Below are positions 23,309 through 29,017 of a DNA stretch of 64,000 bases, piece by piece. The DNA lies in NCBI RefSeq assembly GCF_006715395.1, contig NZ_VFNC01000002.1, forward strand, positions 930,001-994,000. Direction: 5' to 3'. Position numbers and translations under genes: made by a program. Under the pieces are notes generated by a model. That model was not told the origin of the DNA. It searched no databases and saw only the letters and a program-made list of their open reading frames with translations. Position 1 is the first letter of the stretch. Each line of letters begins with the position of its first letter. Source of the DNA: Streptomyces sp. SLBN-31 (GTDB lineage Bacteria > Actinomycetota > Actinomycetes > Streptomycetales > Streptomycetaceae).

Positions 23309-24589
23309 TCACCCCACCGACGAAGGGCCCTCCGCCGATCGACACTCCGCGAGCCGCTTCTCCAGGAACCTCCGTTCGGAGTCGTTCTCCACGAGTTCCA
23401 GGGCCCGTTCGTAGGCCTCGGCCGCCTCGGCGGTACGCCCGTCGCGGCGCAGCAGGTCCGCGCGGGTGGCGGGGAGCAGGTGGTAGTCGGCGAGGTCGCC
23501 GTCCCGCTCCAGTTCGGCGACCAGGGCGAGCCCGGCGTCCGGGCCCTCGGCCATGCCGACGGCGACGGCGCGGTTGAGCCGGACGACGGCCGAGGGCACG
23601 AAGCGGAGCAGGGCGCCGTAGAGCGCGGCGATGTCCGCCCAGTCCGTCTCGTCCGCCGAGGCGGCGCCTGCGTGACAGGCCGCGATGGCCGCCTGGATCT
23701 GGTACGGCCCGGGCCGGCCGCGGCGCAGGGCCGTCTCCACCAGCGCCGTGCCTTCGTCGATCTCCGCTCGGTCCCAGGCCGTACGGTCCTGGTCCTCCAG
23801 GGTCACCAGGTCGCCGGCGGCGTCCACGCGCGTGTGCCGGCGGGCGTCGTGCAGCAGCAGGAGGGCGAGCAGGCCGAGCGTCTCCGGCTCGTCGGGCATG
23901 AGACGGGCCAGCAGCCGGGCGAGGCGGACGGCCTCCGCGCACAGGTCGGTGCGTACCAGTTCGGCTCCGGAGGTGGCGGCGTAGCCCTCGTTGAAGAGGA
24001 GGTAGACCACGCCCAGGACGCCGGTGGTGCGTTCGGGCAGGAGGTGGGCGGGCGGCACCCGGTAGGGGATCCCGGCGTTGCGGATCTTCCTCTTGGCCCG
24101 CACCAGGCGCTGGGCCATGGTCGCCTCGGGGACGAGGAAGGCGCGGGCGATCTCCGGCGTGGTCAGGCCCGCGAGGGTGCGCAGGGTCAGGGCGACCCGG
24201 GCCTCGACGGGCAGGGCGGGGTGGCAGCAGGTGAAGATCAGGCGCAGCCGGTCGTCCTGGACGCCGCCGTCGTCACGGTCGTACTCGGGGTCGTACGGAT
24301 GCTCGTCACGGGCCAGCACGGCGGCCTCCCGGAGTCTGGCCGCCCCGACTGCCCTGCGGCGCAGGACGTCGAGGGCGCGGTTGCGGGCGGTGGTGGTCAG
24401 CCAGGCGCCGGGGCGGCGCGGGACGCCGTCGCGCCGCCACCGGTCGAGGGCCTGGGCGAAGGCGTCCTGCGCGCACTCCTCGGCCAGGTCCCAGTCGCCG
24501 GTCACCCGGATGAGGGTGGCCACGACCTGGCCCCATTCCTCGCGGAAGGCGGCGGCGACGGCCGCCTCGACGTCGTCCGTGGCGCTCAC
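23309..24589 (-). CDS. ECF42-group RNA polymerase sigma factor
   Basis: 426 residues from GTG 24589. Region sigma-2 (about 12-80, with AEECAQDAFAQALDRWRRDG) and sigma-4 (about 125-180, LTTPEIARAFLVPEATMAQRL) are followed by a 230-residue C-terminal extension with TPR-like helices (EAAEAYERALELVENDSERR). That extension, and two DGPF-domain genes directly upstream, are the hallmarks of group ECF42. No anti-sigma factor is present in this group; the extension is thought to control activity. It overlaps the upstream gene by 4 bp (ATGA-type junction read as GTGA). Confidence 0.93.
   Translation of the reverse strand: MSATDDVEAAVAAAFREEWGQVVATLIRVTGDWDLAEECAQDAFAQALDRWRRDGVPRRPGAWLTTTARNRALDVLRRRAVGAARLREAAVLARDEHPYDPEYDRDDGGVQDDRLRLIFTCCHPALPVEARVALTLRTLAGLTTPEIARAFLVPEATMAQRLVRAKRKIRNAGIPYRVPPAHLLPERTTGVLGVVYLLFNEGYAATSGAELVRTDLCAEAVRLARLLARLMPDEPETLGLLALLLLHDARRHTRVDAAGDLVTLEDQDRTAWDRAEIDEGTALVETALRRGRPGPYQIQAAIAACHAGAASADETDWADIAALYGALLRFVPSAVVRLNRAVAVGMAEGPDAGLALVAELERDGDLADYHLLPATRADLLRRDGRTAEAAEAYERALELVENDSERRFLEKRLAECRSAEGPSSVG
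23319..23344 (-). promoter_or_regulatory. Second ECF42-type promoter, inside the sigma gene 3' end
   Basis: On the minus strand TGTCGA (23344-23339) and CGTC (23322-23319) are separated by 16 bp. The downstream stretch CGTCGGTGGGGTG is identical to that of the operon promoter at 25647-25673. It would start transcription close to the sigma stop codon, just ahead of the 42-residue ORF. Confidence 0.6.
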
Positions 24590-24885
24590 TCCCAGACCGG
24601 CCGTACCTCGACCGAACCGCCGTCGAGGGCGTACGGATGCCCGGCCGCCAGGGCGATGGCCTCGTCGAGGTCGTCGACGTCGATGAAGGCGATCGCGGCC
24701 AGGTCCTCCCCTCTGTTCGCGAACGGCCCGTCGCCGAGCAGGACTTCACCGGACTGGACGCGGACGGTGGTGGCGTCGGCGGCCGGCCGCAGCCGCACCC
24801 GGCCGGTGATCTCCGGGGGGACCAGGCACTCCGCAGGACGTTCCTCACCCCCGGCCGGGCAGCGGACCAGCAGGGCGTACCTCAT
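24586..24885 (-). CDS. YCII-related (DGPF) protein
   Basis: 99 residues: MRYALLVRCP, a GEVLLGDGPFANRGEDLAAI core with the DGPF motif, and a VEVRPVWE end. It has the dimeric alpha+beta ferredoxin-like YCII fold. DGPF proteins are the standard partners and targets of ECF42 sigma factors; their biochemical role is unknown. Its start overlaps the stop of the upstream gene by one base and its stop overlaps the sigma start by 4 bp, so the three are translationally coupled. Confidence 0.9.
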   Translation of the reverse strand: MRYALLVRCPAGGEERPAECLVPPEITGRVRLRPAADATTVRVQSGEVLLGDGPFANRGEDLAAIAFIDVDDLDEAIALAAGHPYALDGGSVEVRPVWE

Positions 24886-25607
24886 CACGCCCCCTTCAGG
24901 GCCACGGCGTGTTCGTGGGTGATCAGCCGGCGCAGGCCGGTGTCGCGGTAGCCGGTGGTCACCCGCAGTGTCTCGTCGAGCGCCGTGCCGTCGGCCCGGT
25001 CCGCCGTCAGCCGGACCAGGGCATGGGCGAAGCCGACGCTCTCGTCCACGTGGACCCGCAGGTCCAGGACCTGGCGGGTCACGGGGCCGGTGACGGACGC
25101 GAACAACTCCCGCAGCGCCTCCCGGTGGGCTTTCAGGCCCTGGCGCTCCCGGCCGTCGGCGAGGTGGAAGACGGCCGCGTCCGGTGTGTAGCAGGCCAGC
25201 GCGCGGTCGAGGTCGCGGGCGCGGAAGGCGGCGGTGAGTTCCGTGTCGCGGGCGCGGATCGCGCTCTCGGCGTCGTCCTCGTCGTCCATCGGCCAGAACG
25301 GCCGTACCTCCATGGCCCCGATGGTGGCCACGGGGTGTGCGGCGGCCGCCGCGACCGCCTCCTCCAGGCTGTCGCACTCCAGGATGTCGAATCCGGCGAC
25401 GTACTCCTTGGTCTCGGCGAAGGGCCCGTCGGTGCGCAGGACCTCGCCTCCGCGCACCCGCACGGTGACCGCCTCGGCGGGCAGGGCCAGCCGGTGGCCG
25501 TGCAGGCGTGCGCCGCGCTCCCCGAGTTCCTCCACCCAGGGCTCGACGGGTGCCATGCCGGAGGCGTCGGCGGTGTCGTCGCCGCAGACGAGCAGCATGT
25601 ACTTCAT
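24885..25607 (-). CDS. DGPF (YCII) - SnoaL fusion protein
   Basis: 240 residues; GGGAGGG precedes the ATG at 25607. The first 108 residues are a YCII/DGPF domain (MKYMLLVCGDD, then VLRTDGPFAETKEYVAGFDI). The rest is an NTF2/SnoaL-like domain (LTAAFRARDLDRALACYTPD, then ADGRERQGLKAHREALRELF). This is the first gene of the ECF42 operon, and the fusion links the sigma-associated fold to a ligand- or substrate-binding module. A TGTCGA/CGTC promoter lies 40 bp upstream. Confidence 0.88.
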   Translation of the reverse strand: MKYMLLVCGDDTADASGMAPVEPWVEELGERGARLHGHRLALPAEAVTVRVRGGEVLRTDGPFAETKEYVAGFDILECDSLEEAVAAAAAHPVATIGAMEVRPFWPMDDEDDAESAIRARDTELTAAFRARDLDRALACYTPDAAVFHLADGRERQGLKAHREALRELFASVTGPVTRQVLDLRVHVDESVGFAHALVRLTADRADGTALDETLRVTTGYRDTGLRRLITHEHAVALKGA

Positions 25608-25726: not shown

Positions 25727-26270
25727 TTACGCCGACCACGCCGACGCCGTCTGCACCGTCGGCTCTCCCGCGCCCACCGTCGACCGGGCGATGTTGCCCC
25801 GGACCAGCAGCATGGTGACCAGGGCGCCCAGCAGGGAGGCGCAGCCGCAGATCACCACGCCCACCGCCATGCCGTGCCGAGGGCGCTCTGGGCGGCGGCG
25901 CGGGCGCTGTCGCTGCCGGCGTTACGACGGCGAGCGGTCCGGCGGCCGCCTCCATGCCGGCGTCGGCGCCGCTGAGCTTGCCGACGAGCACCGAGGATGC
26001 GGCACTCATCGCGACCGTGCTGACGACGGCCGGCCCGAGGGCCTGGCCGGACTCGCGGACCAATCAGCAGCCAGCGGGGCTCGACCCGGGTGAGCATCCT
26101 GCTCAGCACGGGCGCCAGCAGCAGCGGGATCAGCTACGGGCCCCGAAGGGGCAGGCCGGCCCTGAGGGCGCTGCGGTGCATGACGGCGCCCAGCCGGATG
26201 GACACGCAGTAGGCGATGCAGATGAAGCCGCACATGCCGGCCAGGGCGACGGCGGCCGCGAAGAGTAGGC
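25727..26270 (-). pseudogene. Decayed DHA2-type MFS drug exporter (C-terminal half)
   Basis: Transmembrane pieces of a 14-helix exporter can be read in order on the minus strand: LFAAAVALAGMCGFICIAYC, an in-frame TAG near 26133, LIPLLLAPVLSRMLTRVEPR, then (shifted) GPAVVSTVAMSAASSVLVGK and (shifted) VICGCASLLGALVTMLLVRG with a TAA at 25727. At least one stop and three frameshifts destroy it. Confidence 0.75.
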
Positions 26271-26280
26271 CGGGACGGCG

Positions 26281-26355
26281 ATCCTCGGCTCGCTCGCCCT
26301 CGCCGCCATGGCCCTGATCGGGTTCCTCGTCGCGGAGATGCGTGCGGCGTCCCTT
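26281..26355 (+). pseudogene. Inverted MFS fragment
   Basis: On the plus strand, 26281 onward reads ILGSLALAAMALIGFLVAEM, a typical helix and loop from the middle of DHA2 exporters. It directly abuts the minus-strand exporter relic but in the opposite direction, as if a piece of the same or a related gene had been inverted. Confidence 0.45.
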
Positions 26356-26394
26356 GGTGGCAGGTATGCGCCCCGAGCGGAATAGGCGCGGCGC

Positions 26395-26699
26395 CCAGCG
26401 TGTTGAGGATGCTGAGCAGTCGAACCGGTTTGGGCCCGCGGCGCCTGTGGTACCGTCCTGCTAGCACTTGTGTACGCCCCGTTGAGGGCGCCGGTGCCAG
26501 TTCCACTTCAGTTGGCCGCCCGCCCGCCGTCTTCCGGCCGGCGCACCGGCTTCCCACCTCCACCTCGTGACCGGCGCGTTCCCGCCCCGCATCGAGGTGC
26601 CGTTCCCGCCGCCGAAAGCGCATGCCTGCCTTTCCCTCGCGGCCTTCCCCCTCCCTCCCGCATGTCCCATGCCATTCGTCCTCGAAAGGACCGACCATC
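26395..26699 (+). other. Long 5' leader of the rho-like gene
   Basis: No ORF with support. A promoter may lie near 26450 (TGTGGTACCGTCC). From about 26620 to 26690 the strand is very rich in C and T and poor in G, the composition expected of Rho-binding (rut-like) RNA. This hints at autogenous control, as for other rho genes. The last bases hold AAGGA, the ribosome site. Confidence 0.35.
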
Positions 26700-27842
26700 A
26701 TGACCACCACTCTCGAACACCCCCCTGTACAGCAGGAATCCCGGACACAGCTCGCCGGCGGTGTCCTCGACATCGACGCGGGCGGAAAGGGCCATCTGCG
26801 CGCCGACAGCCTCCACGCCACACCTTCCGACCTGCCGGTTCCGCCCGCGCTGATCCGCCGTCACGGCCTGCGCAAGGGCGACCTGGTGGAAGGCGTGCGC
26901 GACGACAGGCGCGCGCTCACCGAGGTCGTACGGGTCAACGGGCGTACGCTCGAGGAACTTCGCGGCCGCCCGCACTTCCGCGACCTCACCCCGCTGCATC
27001 CCCGGGGGCGCATCCGCCTGGAGCACCCGGCGGCCGGGCTCGCGGGGCGTGTCACCGACCTCGTCTCACCCGTCGGGAAGGGCCAGCGCGGTCTGATCGT
27101 GGCCCCGCCCAAGACCGGCAAGACCGTGCTGCTGCAGCAGATCGCGGCCGCCGTCGCCGGCAACCATCCCGAGTGCCACCTGATGGTGGTGCTGCTGGAC
27201 GAACGGCCCGAGGAGGTCACCGAGATGCGGCGCTCCGTGCGCGGCGAGGTGTACGCCTCCACCTTCGACCGGGGTCCCAAGCAGCACATCGCGCTCGCCG
27301 AACTCGTCATCGAGCGCGCGAAGCGGCTCGTCGAGGCCGGCGAGGACGTCGTGATCCTGCTCGACTCCCTGACCCGGCTGTGCCGGGCGCACAACAACGC
27401 GGCCGCCTCGAGCGGCCGTACGCTCAGCGGCGGTGTGGACGCCTCCGCGCTGCTCGGCCCTAAGCGGTTCTTCGGCGCCGCCCGGCTCGCCGAGGAGGGC
27501 GGCTCGCTGACGATCCTCGCCACCGCCCTGGTGGAGACCGGCTCGCGCGCCGACGACTACTTCTTCGAGGAGCTGAAGAGCACCGGCAACATGGAGTTGC
27601 GCCTGAGCCGCGAACTCGCCTCGCGCCGCGTCTTCCCGGCCGTCGACATCAACACCTCCGGCACCCGCCGTGAGGAACTCCTCCTCTCCCCCGCCGAGTT
27701 GACCGCCGTACGCGGCCTGCGCCGTGCCCTGCAGACCCGGGACGGGCAGGCGAGCCTGGAGACCCTTCTGGAGCGCATGCGCGACACCCCGGACAACGCC
27801 GCCTTCCTGCGGCGCATCCAGCCCACACTGCCGGCCGGCTGA
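26700..27842 (+). CDS. rho: Short transcription termination factor Rho paralogue
   Basis: 380 residues from ATG 26700 (AAGGA upstream). All ATPase-core motifs of Rho are present: Walker A GLIVAPPKTGKT (131-142), LLDERPEEVTEM (165-176), Walker B VVILLDSLTRL, the Q-loop LSGGVDASAL and the R-loop/arginine-finger region ending NTSGTRREE. Actinobacterial housekeeping Rho is usually around 600-700 residues with a long charged insertion; this one lacks it and starts near the cold-shock-like RNA domain. Two differences from E. coli stand out: the aromatic pair of the RNA site (GFGF, F62/F64) is GKGH, and Gly337 is Ser (ELKSTGNME, S294). Probably a second, specialised Rho. Confidence 0.9.
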   Translation: MTTTLEHPPVQQESRTQLAGGVLDIDAGGKGHLRADSLHATPSDLPVPPALIRRHGLRKGDLVEGVRDDRRALTEVVRVNGRTLEELRGRPHFRDLTPLHPRGRIRLEHPAAGLAGRVTDLVSPVGKGQRGLIVAPPKTGKTVLLQQIAAAVAGNHPECHLMVVLLDERPEEVTEMRRSVRGEVYASTFDRGPKQHIALAELVIERAKRLVEAGEDVVILLDSLTRLCRAHNNAAASSGRTLSGGVDASALLGPKRFFGAARLAEEGGSLTILATALVETGSRADDYFFEELKSTGNMELRLSRELASRRVFPAVDINTSGTRREELLLSPAELTAVRGLRRALQTRDGQASLETLLERMRDTPDNAAFLRRIQPTLPAG

Positions 27843-27934
27843 CGAAGCCCCTCGGTTCTGAGCACCGGATTGTCCCCTATCCTTCGGGCTGACCTGCACA
27901 TGCAAAGCACAGGTTCGACACGGGGGTACAGCAC

Positions 27935-29017
27935 ATGACATATCGGCGCGCGGTCATACCGGTACTGGCCGGAGGCGCCCTGCTCACACTGCTGATGCTG
28001 TGGGCGGGAGCGAGCGCCTCGGCACTGCAACTCCAGGGCTCGGGCAACGTGTTCGACATCGAGTCCGCGAACGCCCTCAGAGTCCTGCTCTCACCCTGGT
28101 CGTACTCGGACGTGGGCGGCGGCGGCCCGTACACCGACCTCTACCGCACCGCGATGCAGATCAGGTTCGTGACGCTCTTCCTGTTCTTCGTGGCCGGTGC
28201 GCTCCTCCTGCTGCGCCGGCTGCCGCCGGTGCAGGGCCGCACACCTGCCACGCTGCTCGCGCTGTGGGCCTGGGCCCCGGTGGCGGCGACGCTGGCCGTG
28301 ACCGTGTCGGCGCCCTGGCTGATCGCCTCGCGGGGGCACGGCAGTTTCCGGGTGCTGCCCCAGCTCGCGGGCGTGATCGCGTCGGGCGGTCCGGTCGCGG
28401 TGTTCGCGGGGCTGCTGGCCGCCCCGGTCACGGTGGTGGTGGCGCGTGTCATGGACAAGGACGAGGAACCGCTGCCCCGGAGAAACGTGCCGCCGCTCGC
28501 GGCCCGTCTGTCGGCGAGCACCGGGACCGCCGTGGTGGCGCTGTCGCTGGTGGTCCTCTCGTACCAGTCGGTGGCGGCCTGGATCCAGACGTCCTTCCCC
28601 GGCGAGGGACTGCTGTCCGAGCCCGGCGACCTGCTGCGCGAGTGGCTGCTGCTGGGAGCATGGAGCGACCCGACGACGTCACCCCTGGGCGACTGGCTGA
28701 CGTACCGGGCGGCCGACGTGCTCGTGCTCGCCGTGGTGTGGTGGGCGCTGCGGCTGCTGCCGGCCCTCCTCACCGAGGCCACGGCGCCGACCATGGCGGC
28801 GGGCGCTGTCTGCGCGACCGTGCTGGGCCTGCTGGCGAGCCAGCTCCTGCACTGGGCGATGGACGACACCACCGCCGTACGCGGGCCGGTGTCCCTGTTG
28901 GCCGGGCTCGGCGGCGGCGTCCCGGCCGCCCTCACCTTCGGCATTCTCGCGGGGATCGCGGCCGTCGTGACGCTACGGCTGGCCGGGCACCGCAAGACCG
29001 CCGACTCCTCCGGGTGA
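27935..29017 (+). CDS. Multi-pass membrane protein of unknown function
   Basis: 360 residues with about eight predicted membrane helices (AVIPVLAGGALLTLLMLWAG, TLFLFFVAGALLLL, LLALWAWAPVAATLAVTV, VIASGGPVAVFAGLLAA and others). An extracellular loop rich in Ser/Gly follows the first helix. No conserved polar signature of a transporter or enzyme is evident, and I do not recognise the family. ACCTG (27892-27896) and CAGGT (27910-27914) form an inverted repeat just before the start. It is a single gene between rho and a D,D-carboxypeptidase. Confidence 0.75.
   Translation: MTYRRAVIPVLAGGALLTLLMLWAGASASALQLQGSGNVFDIESANALRVLLSPWSYSDVGGGGPYTDLYRTAMQIRFVTLFLFFVAGALLLLRRLPPVQGRTPATLLALWAWAPVAATLAVTVSAPWLIASRGHGSFRVLPQLAGVIASGGPVAVFAGLLAAPVTVVVARVMDKDEEPLPRRNVPPLAARLSASTGTAVVALSLVVLSYQSVAAWIQTSFPGEGLLSEPGDLLREWLLLGAWSDPTTSPLGDWLTYRAADVLVLAVVWWALRLLPALLTEATAPTMAAGAVCATVLGLLASQLLHWAMDDTTAVRGPVSLLAGLGGGVPAALTFGILAGIAAVVTLRLAGHRKTADSSG

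Follow-up and report, generated by a model that had tools for sequence, protein, structure and literature searches.

A short second Rho of Streptomyces and other actinomycetes that keeps the motor residues, lacks the rut-contact aromatics and often carries serine at position 337

The locus raises the question of why a Streptomyces genome with a normal, full-length Rho carries a second, short rho gene, and whether a serine in a presumed antibiotic pocket accounts for it. The window, the whole stretch of 64,000 nucleotides that we analysed, covers positions 930001-994000 of contig 2 in a genome of 9.47 Mb. The short Rho paralogue is encoded at 26700..27842 (+) and has 380 aa; the mechanically called open reading frame begins upstream at 26622, and the MTTTLE-type ATG start at 26700, preceded by GAAAGGA, is the one kept in relatives. 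Pfam finds an N-terminal Rho RNA-binding OB domain (Rho_RNA_bind, PF07497; 26757..26951, +) and an ATP-synthase-type motor. The alignment shows the RecA-type motor set to be present, with Walker A (PPKTGKT, E. coli 179-185; 27105..27125, +), catalytic Glu211, Walker B (Asp222, E. coli Asp265; 27363..27365, +) and the arginine finger (Arg323, E. coli Arg366; 27666..27668, +) all intact. The R-loop stretch reads ETGSR (E. coli DTGSK, 322-326; 27534..27548, +), and the Q-loop stretch (E. coli 278-290; 27402..27440, +) has Ala for Pro279, with His for Tyr274 just before it. An AlphaFold model built from 25 rows reaches a mean pLDDT of 69.6 and a pTM of 0.63, a modest quality; it retains an OB-like strand pattern at residues 17-79 and the motor core, and has no bearing on the pocket. 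The long Rho of the same genome has 732 aa (L001, 1222-3420) and, over 367 positions, shares 58% identity with the short Rho.

Residues 288-302 of the short Rho read FFEELKSTGNMELRL and contain Ser294 (codon AGC; 27579..27581, +). The HMMER alignment to the solved E. coli Rho is gapless here (EELKSTGNMEL against EEFKGTGNMEL) and places Ser294 opposite Gly337, a numbering fixed by counting back from E. coli Arg366 and Phe355, which confirms the equivalence drawn in the earlier note. G337S is a bicyclomycin-resistance change in E. coli Rho, as are M219K and S266A, and we take 337 to lie in the segment around the bicyclomycin pocket. We checked whether the housekeeping Rho of the strain has the same serine; it reads EEFKGTGNAEL, with Gly at 337. 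Two further differences in that note, Thr for Ala182 and Glu for Asp322, are correctly read and uninformative: the strain's own long Rho also has Thr, and Glu is found in M. tuberculosis Rho as well as in 17 of the 46 housekeeping rows. As both residues occur in housekeeping Rhos, they support no special pocket.

Compared across short Rhos, as the earlier note had proposed, residue 337 is Ser in 113 of 181 rows and Gly in 68, with no other residue in any of the several families, and it is Gly in all 46 housekeeping rows. The housekeeping set comprises E. coli, 30 loci and 15 others (35 from the window's genus; L262 is counted here). Three rows were dropped (F_L252 and F_L261, which are long frames, and L175, in which no frame was found), and F_L224, a fragment that groups with long Rhos, enters the 181-row counts but not the 180-row counts. 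Four short genes are present twice (window/L115, L081/L126, L082/L129 and L070/L121), and their removal leaves Ser in 110 of 177 rows. Chance as the source of Ser337 is ruled out by the contrast of 113/181 with 0/46, and assembly error is rejected too. A resistance mutation peculiar to the strain is likewise ruled out, since the window and 80 relatives have Ser in 69 of 81 rows (Gly in 12), although these relatives are the best 80 of 299 from named records and the sample leans towards the query. All 30 long Rhos fetched from Streptomyces have Gly337.

Outside Streptomyces but within its family, 26 of 40 loci (taken from 51 listed) have Ser and 14 have Gly; six of them (L156, L158 and L160-L163) are still housekeeping-like at Phe335 and Met327, and all six have Ser. 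Across the 120 loci L005-L084 and L125-L164 the serine codons are AGC (93) and AGT (1), with no TCN, and the glycine codons are GGC (20), GGG (4) and GGA (2), so that most pairs of states differ by a single base. Further afield the spread is uneven. Short Rhos of family f17 taken genus by genus have Ser in 4 of 37 and Gly in 33, whereas a search with an f17 short Rho finds Ser in 36 of its best 37 proteins, the cut after the 37th being our own choice. Many of these 37 are named Microbispora, Planotetraspora, Acrocarpospora or Herbidospora; since Microbispora belongs to the Streptosporangiaceae, f17 is probably that family. The remaining 83 proteins of the search comprise 68 of at least 500 aa, all Gly, and 15 shorter ones, 14 with Gly and one with Ser. 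In the search with the window protein, 112 of the best 120 have Ser, the query counted.

An alignment-free scan of 246 genomes across the class, using a DNA pattern for E-E-x-K-[Ser and look-alikes]-T-G-N, matched 17 genomes. One match lies outside any Rho and encodes Thr; the other 16 are inside second Rho genes (11 in the window's genus, four in f17 and one in f37), and no main Rho in the scan was met with Ser337, with the proviso that the pattern misses a few Rhos. The control Gly pattern matched 89 of 98 genomes; six of the nine misses have no Rho match, and the other three (G543, G561 and G605) have one, which shows that such a codon pattern overlooks a few. Being met only in extra Rho copies, Ser337 looks like a family trait and not like the self-protection of one strain.

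A profile built from 25 short Rhos gave two Rho matches in 210 of 392 Streptomyces genomes, one in 178 and none in four, so presence of the second copy in the genus is patchy; the 210 were counted by hand and include a few genomes, such as G389, in which the second copy is not of the short type. The two Rhos of G389 (L176 and L182) are near-identical and housekeeping-like, and both have Asn at Ser266, another bicyclomycin-resistance position. Second copies are not confined to Streptomyces: further genera of its family and further actinomycete families have them, and trees split these copies into several groups. A tree that combines 75 short rows with 14 housekeeping rows requires no fewer than 13 changes of state at 337, and well-supported branches for the Ser group force 11 of these. 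A single Ser clade is rejected (p 9.8e-39), as is expected from the Gly rows nested within the main Ser clade, and gains are indistinguishable from losses. The housekeeping rows fall on one side of a weakly supported branch (40/86), and with such weak deep branches one ancient Rho2 and several duplications are both possible.

So many changes at one site, together with the patchy presence, could be read as the mark of a decaying duplicate in which 337 simply drifts between Ser and Gly. We regard this as very improbable: dN/dS lies between 0.085 and 0.464 across 19 close pairs, which indicates purifying selection on short rho, the catalytic residues Lys184, Glu211, Asp265 and Arg366 are kept in 180 of 180 short rows, and 337 is restricted to the two residues throughout.

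What the short Rhos have lost is found in the RNA-binding surface. The aromatics F62, F64 and Y80 of E. coli Rho, which we take to be contacts to rut RNA in the primary binding site, are not present in the window protein, which has K30, H32 and P46 there; the strain's long Rho has Y/F/Y. An aromatic residue at 62 is found in 46 of 46 housekeeping rows and in 0 of 180 short rows, while Phe64 is kept in 41, Tyr80 in 11, Pro279 in 54 and Tyr274 in 56 of the 180; the window protein has Ala at 279 and His at 274. Positions 106 and 108-110 are gapped in all 81 rows of the close-relative alignment, and a later alignment fills some of them. Mutations at several of these positions impair Rho in E. coli: Y80C Rho is defective in most Rho functions, and P279S and Y274D are among termination-defective mutants, according to the cited portion of PMC1950744, which describes the primary RNA domain as perhaps a master switch. 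Such losses, read from sequence, need not mean that RNA binding as such is lost. The window protein also has Val at 168 and Gly at 235, positions with which a study of the NusG surface is reportedly concerned.

A kept ATP site and arginine finger in a protein stripped of its rut aromatics would also suit a subunit that joins housekeeping Rho hexamers and tunes or poisons termination. The short Rho co-occurs with the long one, to which it is 58% identical; however, the 42% at which they differ may block mixing, and we consider such a modulator of the ring unlikely.

Position 337 is one of many changes. Of 142 positions between 130 and 414 that are invariant in housekeeping Rhos, it is the 13th most changed in short Rhos, and the adjacent 330, 331 and 335 and the Q-loop positions 279 and 281 have changed more, while Leu320 is kept in 181 of 181 short rows. 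Met219 and Asp210 are kept in 112 and 113 of the 113 Ser rows, against 43 and 47 of the 68 Gly337 short Rhos; those with either position changed belong mainly to f17. We take 219 to be a bicyclomycin-resistance site, and Asp210 adjoins the catalytic Glu211. In second Rhos of f17 and f4 (L185, L186, L189, L191 and others), Asp210 is replaced by Gly together with Gly337, and Met219 is often Leu, Ile, Val or Phe. Mutual exclusion between Ser337 and changes at 219 or 210 appears strong by Fisher test but unsupported on independent pairs (11 pairs, median p 0.5); the pattern tracks clades.

The surroundings of the gene were inspected for clues to its role. Upstream lies a leader (26470..26699, +, limits approximate) in which 16 aligned sequences, the window and 15 loci, share conserved blocks, among them GTGGTAC..T.C...CAGCAC.TGTGT.CG, and a ribosome-binding site; from its sequence the leader is possibly regulatory, and no match to a sigma-70-type promoter was found in 26100-28000. 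The ten neighbours scanned encode a methyltransferase, a SnoaL-like protein, a sigma factor with DUF6596, a YCII/SnoaL-type protein, a protein without a Pfam match, a D-Ala-D-Ala carboxypeptidase, a hydrolase, a glutaminase, a fumarase/aspartase-type lyase and an asparaginase-II-type protein. The carboxypeptidase lies close to the short rho gene in 43 of the 81 loci, the glutaminase in 42. The DUF6596 sigma factor and the adjoining YCII/SnoaL-type protein (23309-25607, -) lie upstream and divergent and are kept in 23 and 24 of the 81 loci. Directly downstream is a 360-aa protein (27935-29017, +) with no Pfam match, which appears membrane-like by eye.

The earlier note had suggested that the short Rho might be a self-resistance or competition trait and had proposed looking for a bicyclomycin-like cluster in the genome. 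The suggestion found no support here: a search of this genome gave no match to a cyclodipeptide synthase (CDPS), and there is no biosynthetic cluster among the ten neighbours. Of 392 Streptomyces genomes, 142 have a CDPS match, as against none of 14 control genomes. We inspected 15 CDPS loci from 15 of the 142 genomes, mostly weak scorers, by counting paralogues within each locus (L282 and L291 end at a contig end; the Pfam scan covered L294 only). One of the 15, L294 in genome G165, is a bicyclomycin-type cluster in the order CDPS, 2OG, 2OG, P450, 2OG, 2OG; it is otherwise close to the bicyclomycin set but has four 2OG enzymes where the cited portion of PMC5930311 describes five. Genome G165 has one Rho match only. 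Seven weak-CDPS genomes (G035, G064, G139, G158, G258, G263 and G337) fall outside this inspection, and two of them, G064 and G158, have two Rho matches.

A wider form of the idea is that the short Rho is kept as a resistant spare target, Ser337 allowing it to work when bicyclomycin-type inhibitors, the cell's own or those of neighbours, block the main Rho. That the residue of an E. coli resistance change is met only in paralogues fits this, as do the many Gly337 short Rhos, mainly of f17, that change 219 or 210 instead. Bicyclomycin does not affect Streptomyces even though the ATPase of S. lividans Rho is sensitive in vitro, and the same source suggests that export, or a Rho that is not essential, may account for this (PMC6934819). 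Those explanations count against a spare target; moreover, the paper speaks of Streptomyces generally, whereas a second Rho is found in only the 210 of 392 genomes. The missing CDPS match, the bicyclomycin-type cluster whose genome has a single Rho match, the repeated exchange of Ser and Gly on the tree and the way the 219/210 pattern follows clades also weigh against it. The loss of the rut-contact aromatics makes it unlikely that short Rhos simply replace the main Rho, and from their sequences we consider it unlikely that they stand in for an inhibited one. We judge the spare target improbable as the reason why the gene is kept. By analogy with the E. coli change, it is plausible that Ser337 incidentally leaves the short Rho insensitive to bicyclomycin; that short Rhos exist is more likely due to a second function of the Rho motor.

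We have high confidence in the description of the family and moderate confidence in the mechanism that we suggest for it. The reading that we favour, with some reserve, is that the short Rho is probably a Rho2 ring motor that is blind to rut, has a remodelled pocket and loads by another route. Starting from the kept motor residues, the lost rut aromatics, the finding of Ser337 in paralogues only and the purifying selection, we infer the following. An actinomycete Rho paralogue with neither the long N-terminal extension nor the rut-reading aromatic pocket, present beside the normal Rho, would form a Rho-like, ATP-driven, RNA-translocating ring. It could load on naked RNA, through RNA polymerase or a partner, or by mixing with housekeeping subunits. 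The altered segment of the ATPase and bicyclomycin pocket (330, 331, 335 and 337) and the Q-loop region (274, 279 and 281) may shift ring closing or hydrolysis, such that rut RNA would no longer be needed as activator, and Ser337 would weaken bicyclomycin binding incidentally. Some observations sit awkwardly with this reading: the f17 rows spread across genera are mostly Gly, 337 ranks only 13th among the changed positions, one row of the 81-row alignment (L080) has Phe at 62, and among the 81 loci and ten neighbours scanned no conserved neighbour points to transcription.

The housekeeping Rho (TIGR00767; E. coli 1PV4, M. tuberculosis 7OQH) is homologous across the OB and motor domains and shares Walker A/B, the R-loop and the arginine finger; the short Rho differs from it in lacking the long N-terminal extension and the rut aromatics and in its altered Q-loop flank and pocket segment. 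The short Rho scores 486.3 bits with TIGR00767 (485.8 in the genome search), below the curated cut-off of 509.45, and 476 with PRK09376, above the cut-off of 315. NF041509 (paralog_Rho2, 'Rho, short form') also describes a short extra Rho, and L189, from an actinomycete genome of family f4, is a member. Membership of the window protein is rejected, as its 488.1 bits fall below the curated cut-off of 628, which is passed by L189 (686 bits) alone among eight further second Rhos and in none of 199 Streptomyces genomes. A literature search by title or abstract start, with subscription papers outside its scope, returned no described short or second Rho. A natural pocket change is known from M. tuberculosis, whose main Rho is bicyclomycin-resistant through Met for Leu320, as stated in the cited portion of PMC8828861; here the change is in the second Rho, and Leu320 is retained.

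On a broader reading, which we hold as fairly unlikely, a widespread, rut-blind second Rho of actinomycetes would have had its bicyclomycin pocket repeatedly remodelled into that of an insensitive motor, through Ser337 in Streptomycetaceae and in proteins of the Microbispora/Planotetraspora type and through changes at 219 or 210 in other short Rhos. This would help to explain tolerance of an inhibitor that hits the main Rho. If bicyclomycin insensitivity of the short Rho is true, it could help to explain why Streptomyces tolerates the drug, and the short Rho is a concrete candidate for the point left by the sensitive S. lividans ATPase in the cited text of PMC6934819. Rho has a single main copy, whose rut-reading domain is described in PMC1950744 as possibly a master switch. 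A paralogue that keeps the motor and drops the rut surface would imply a second Rho-driven process in actinomycetes.
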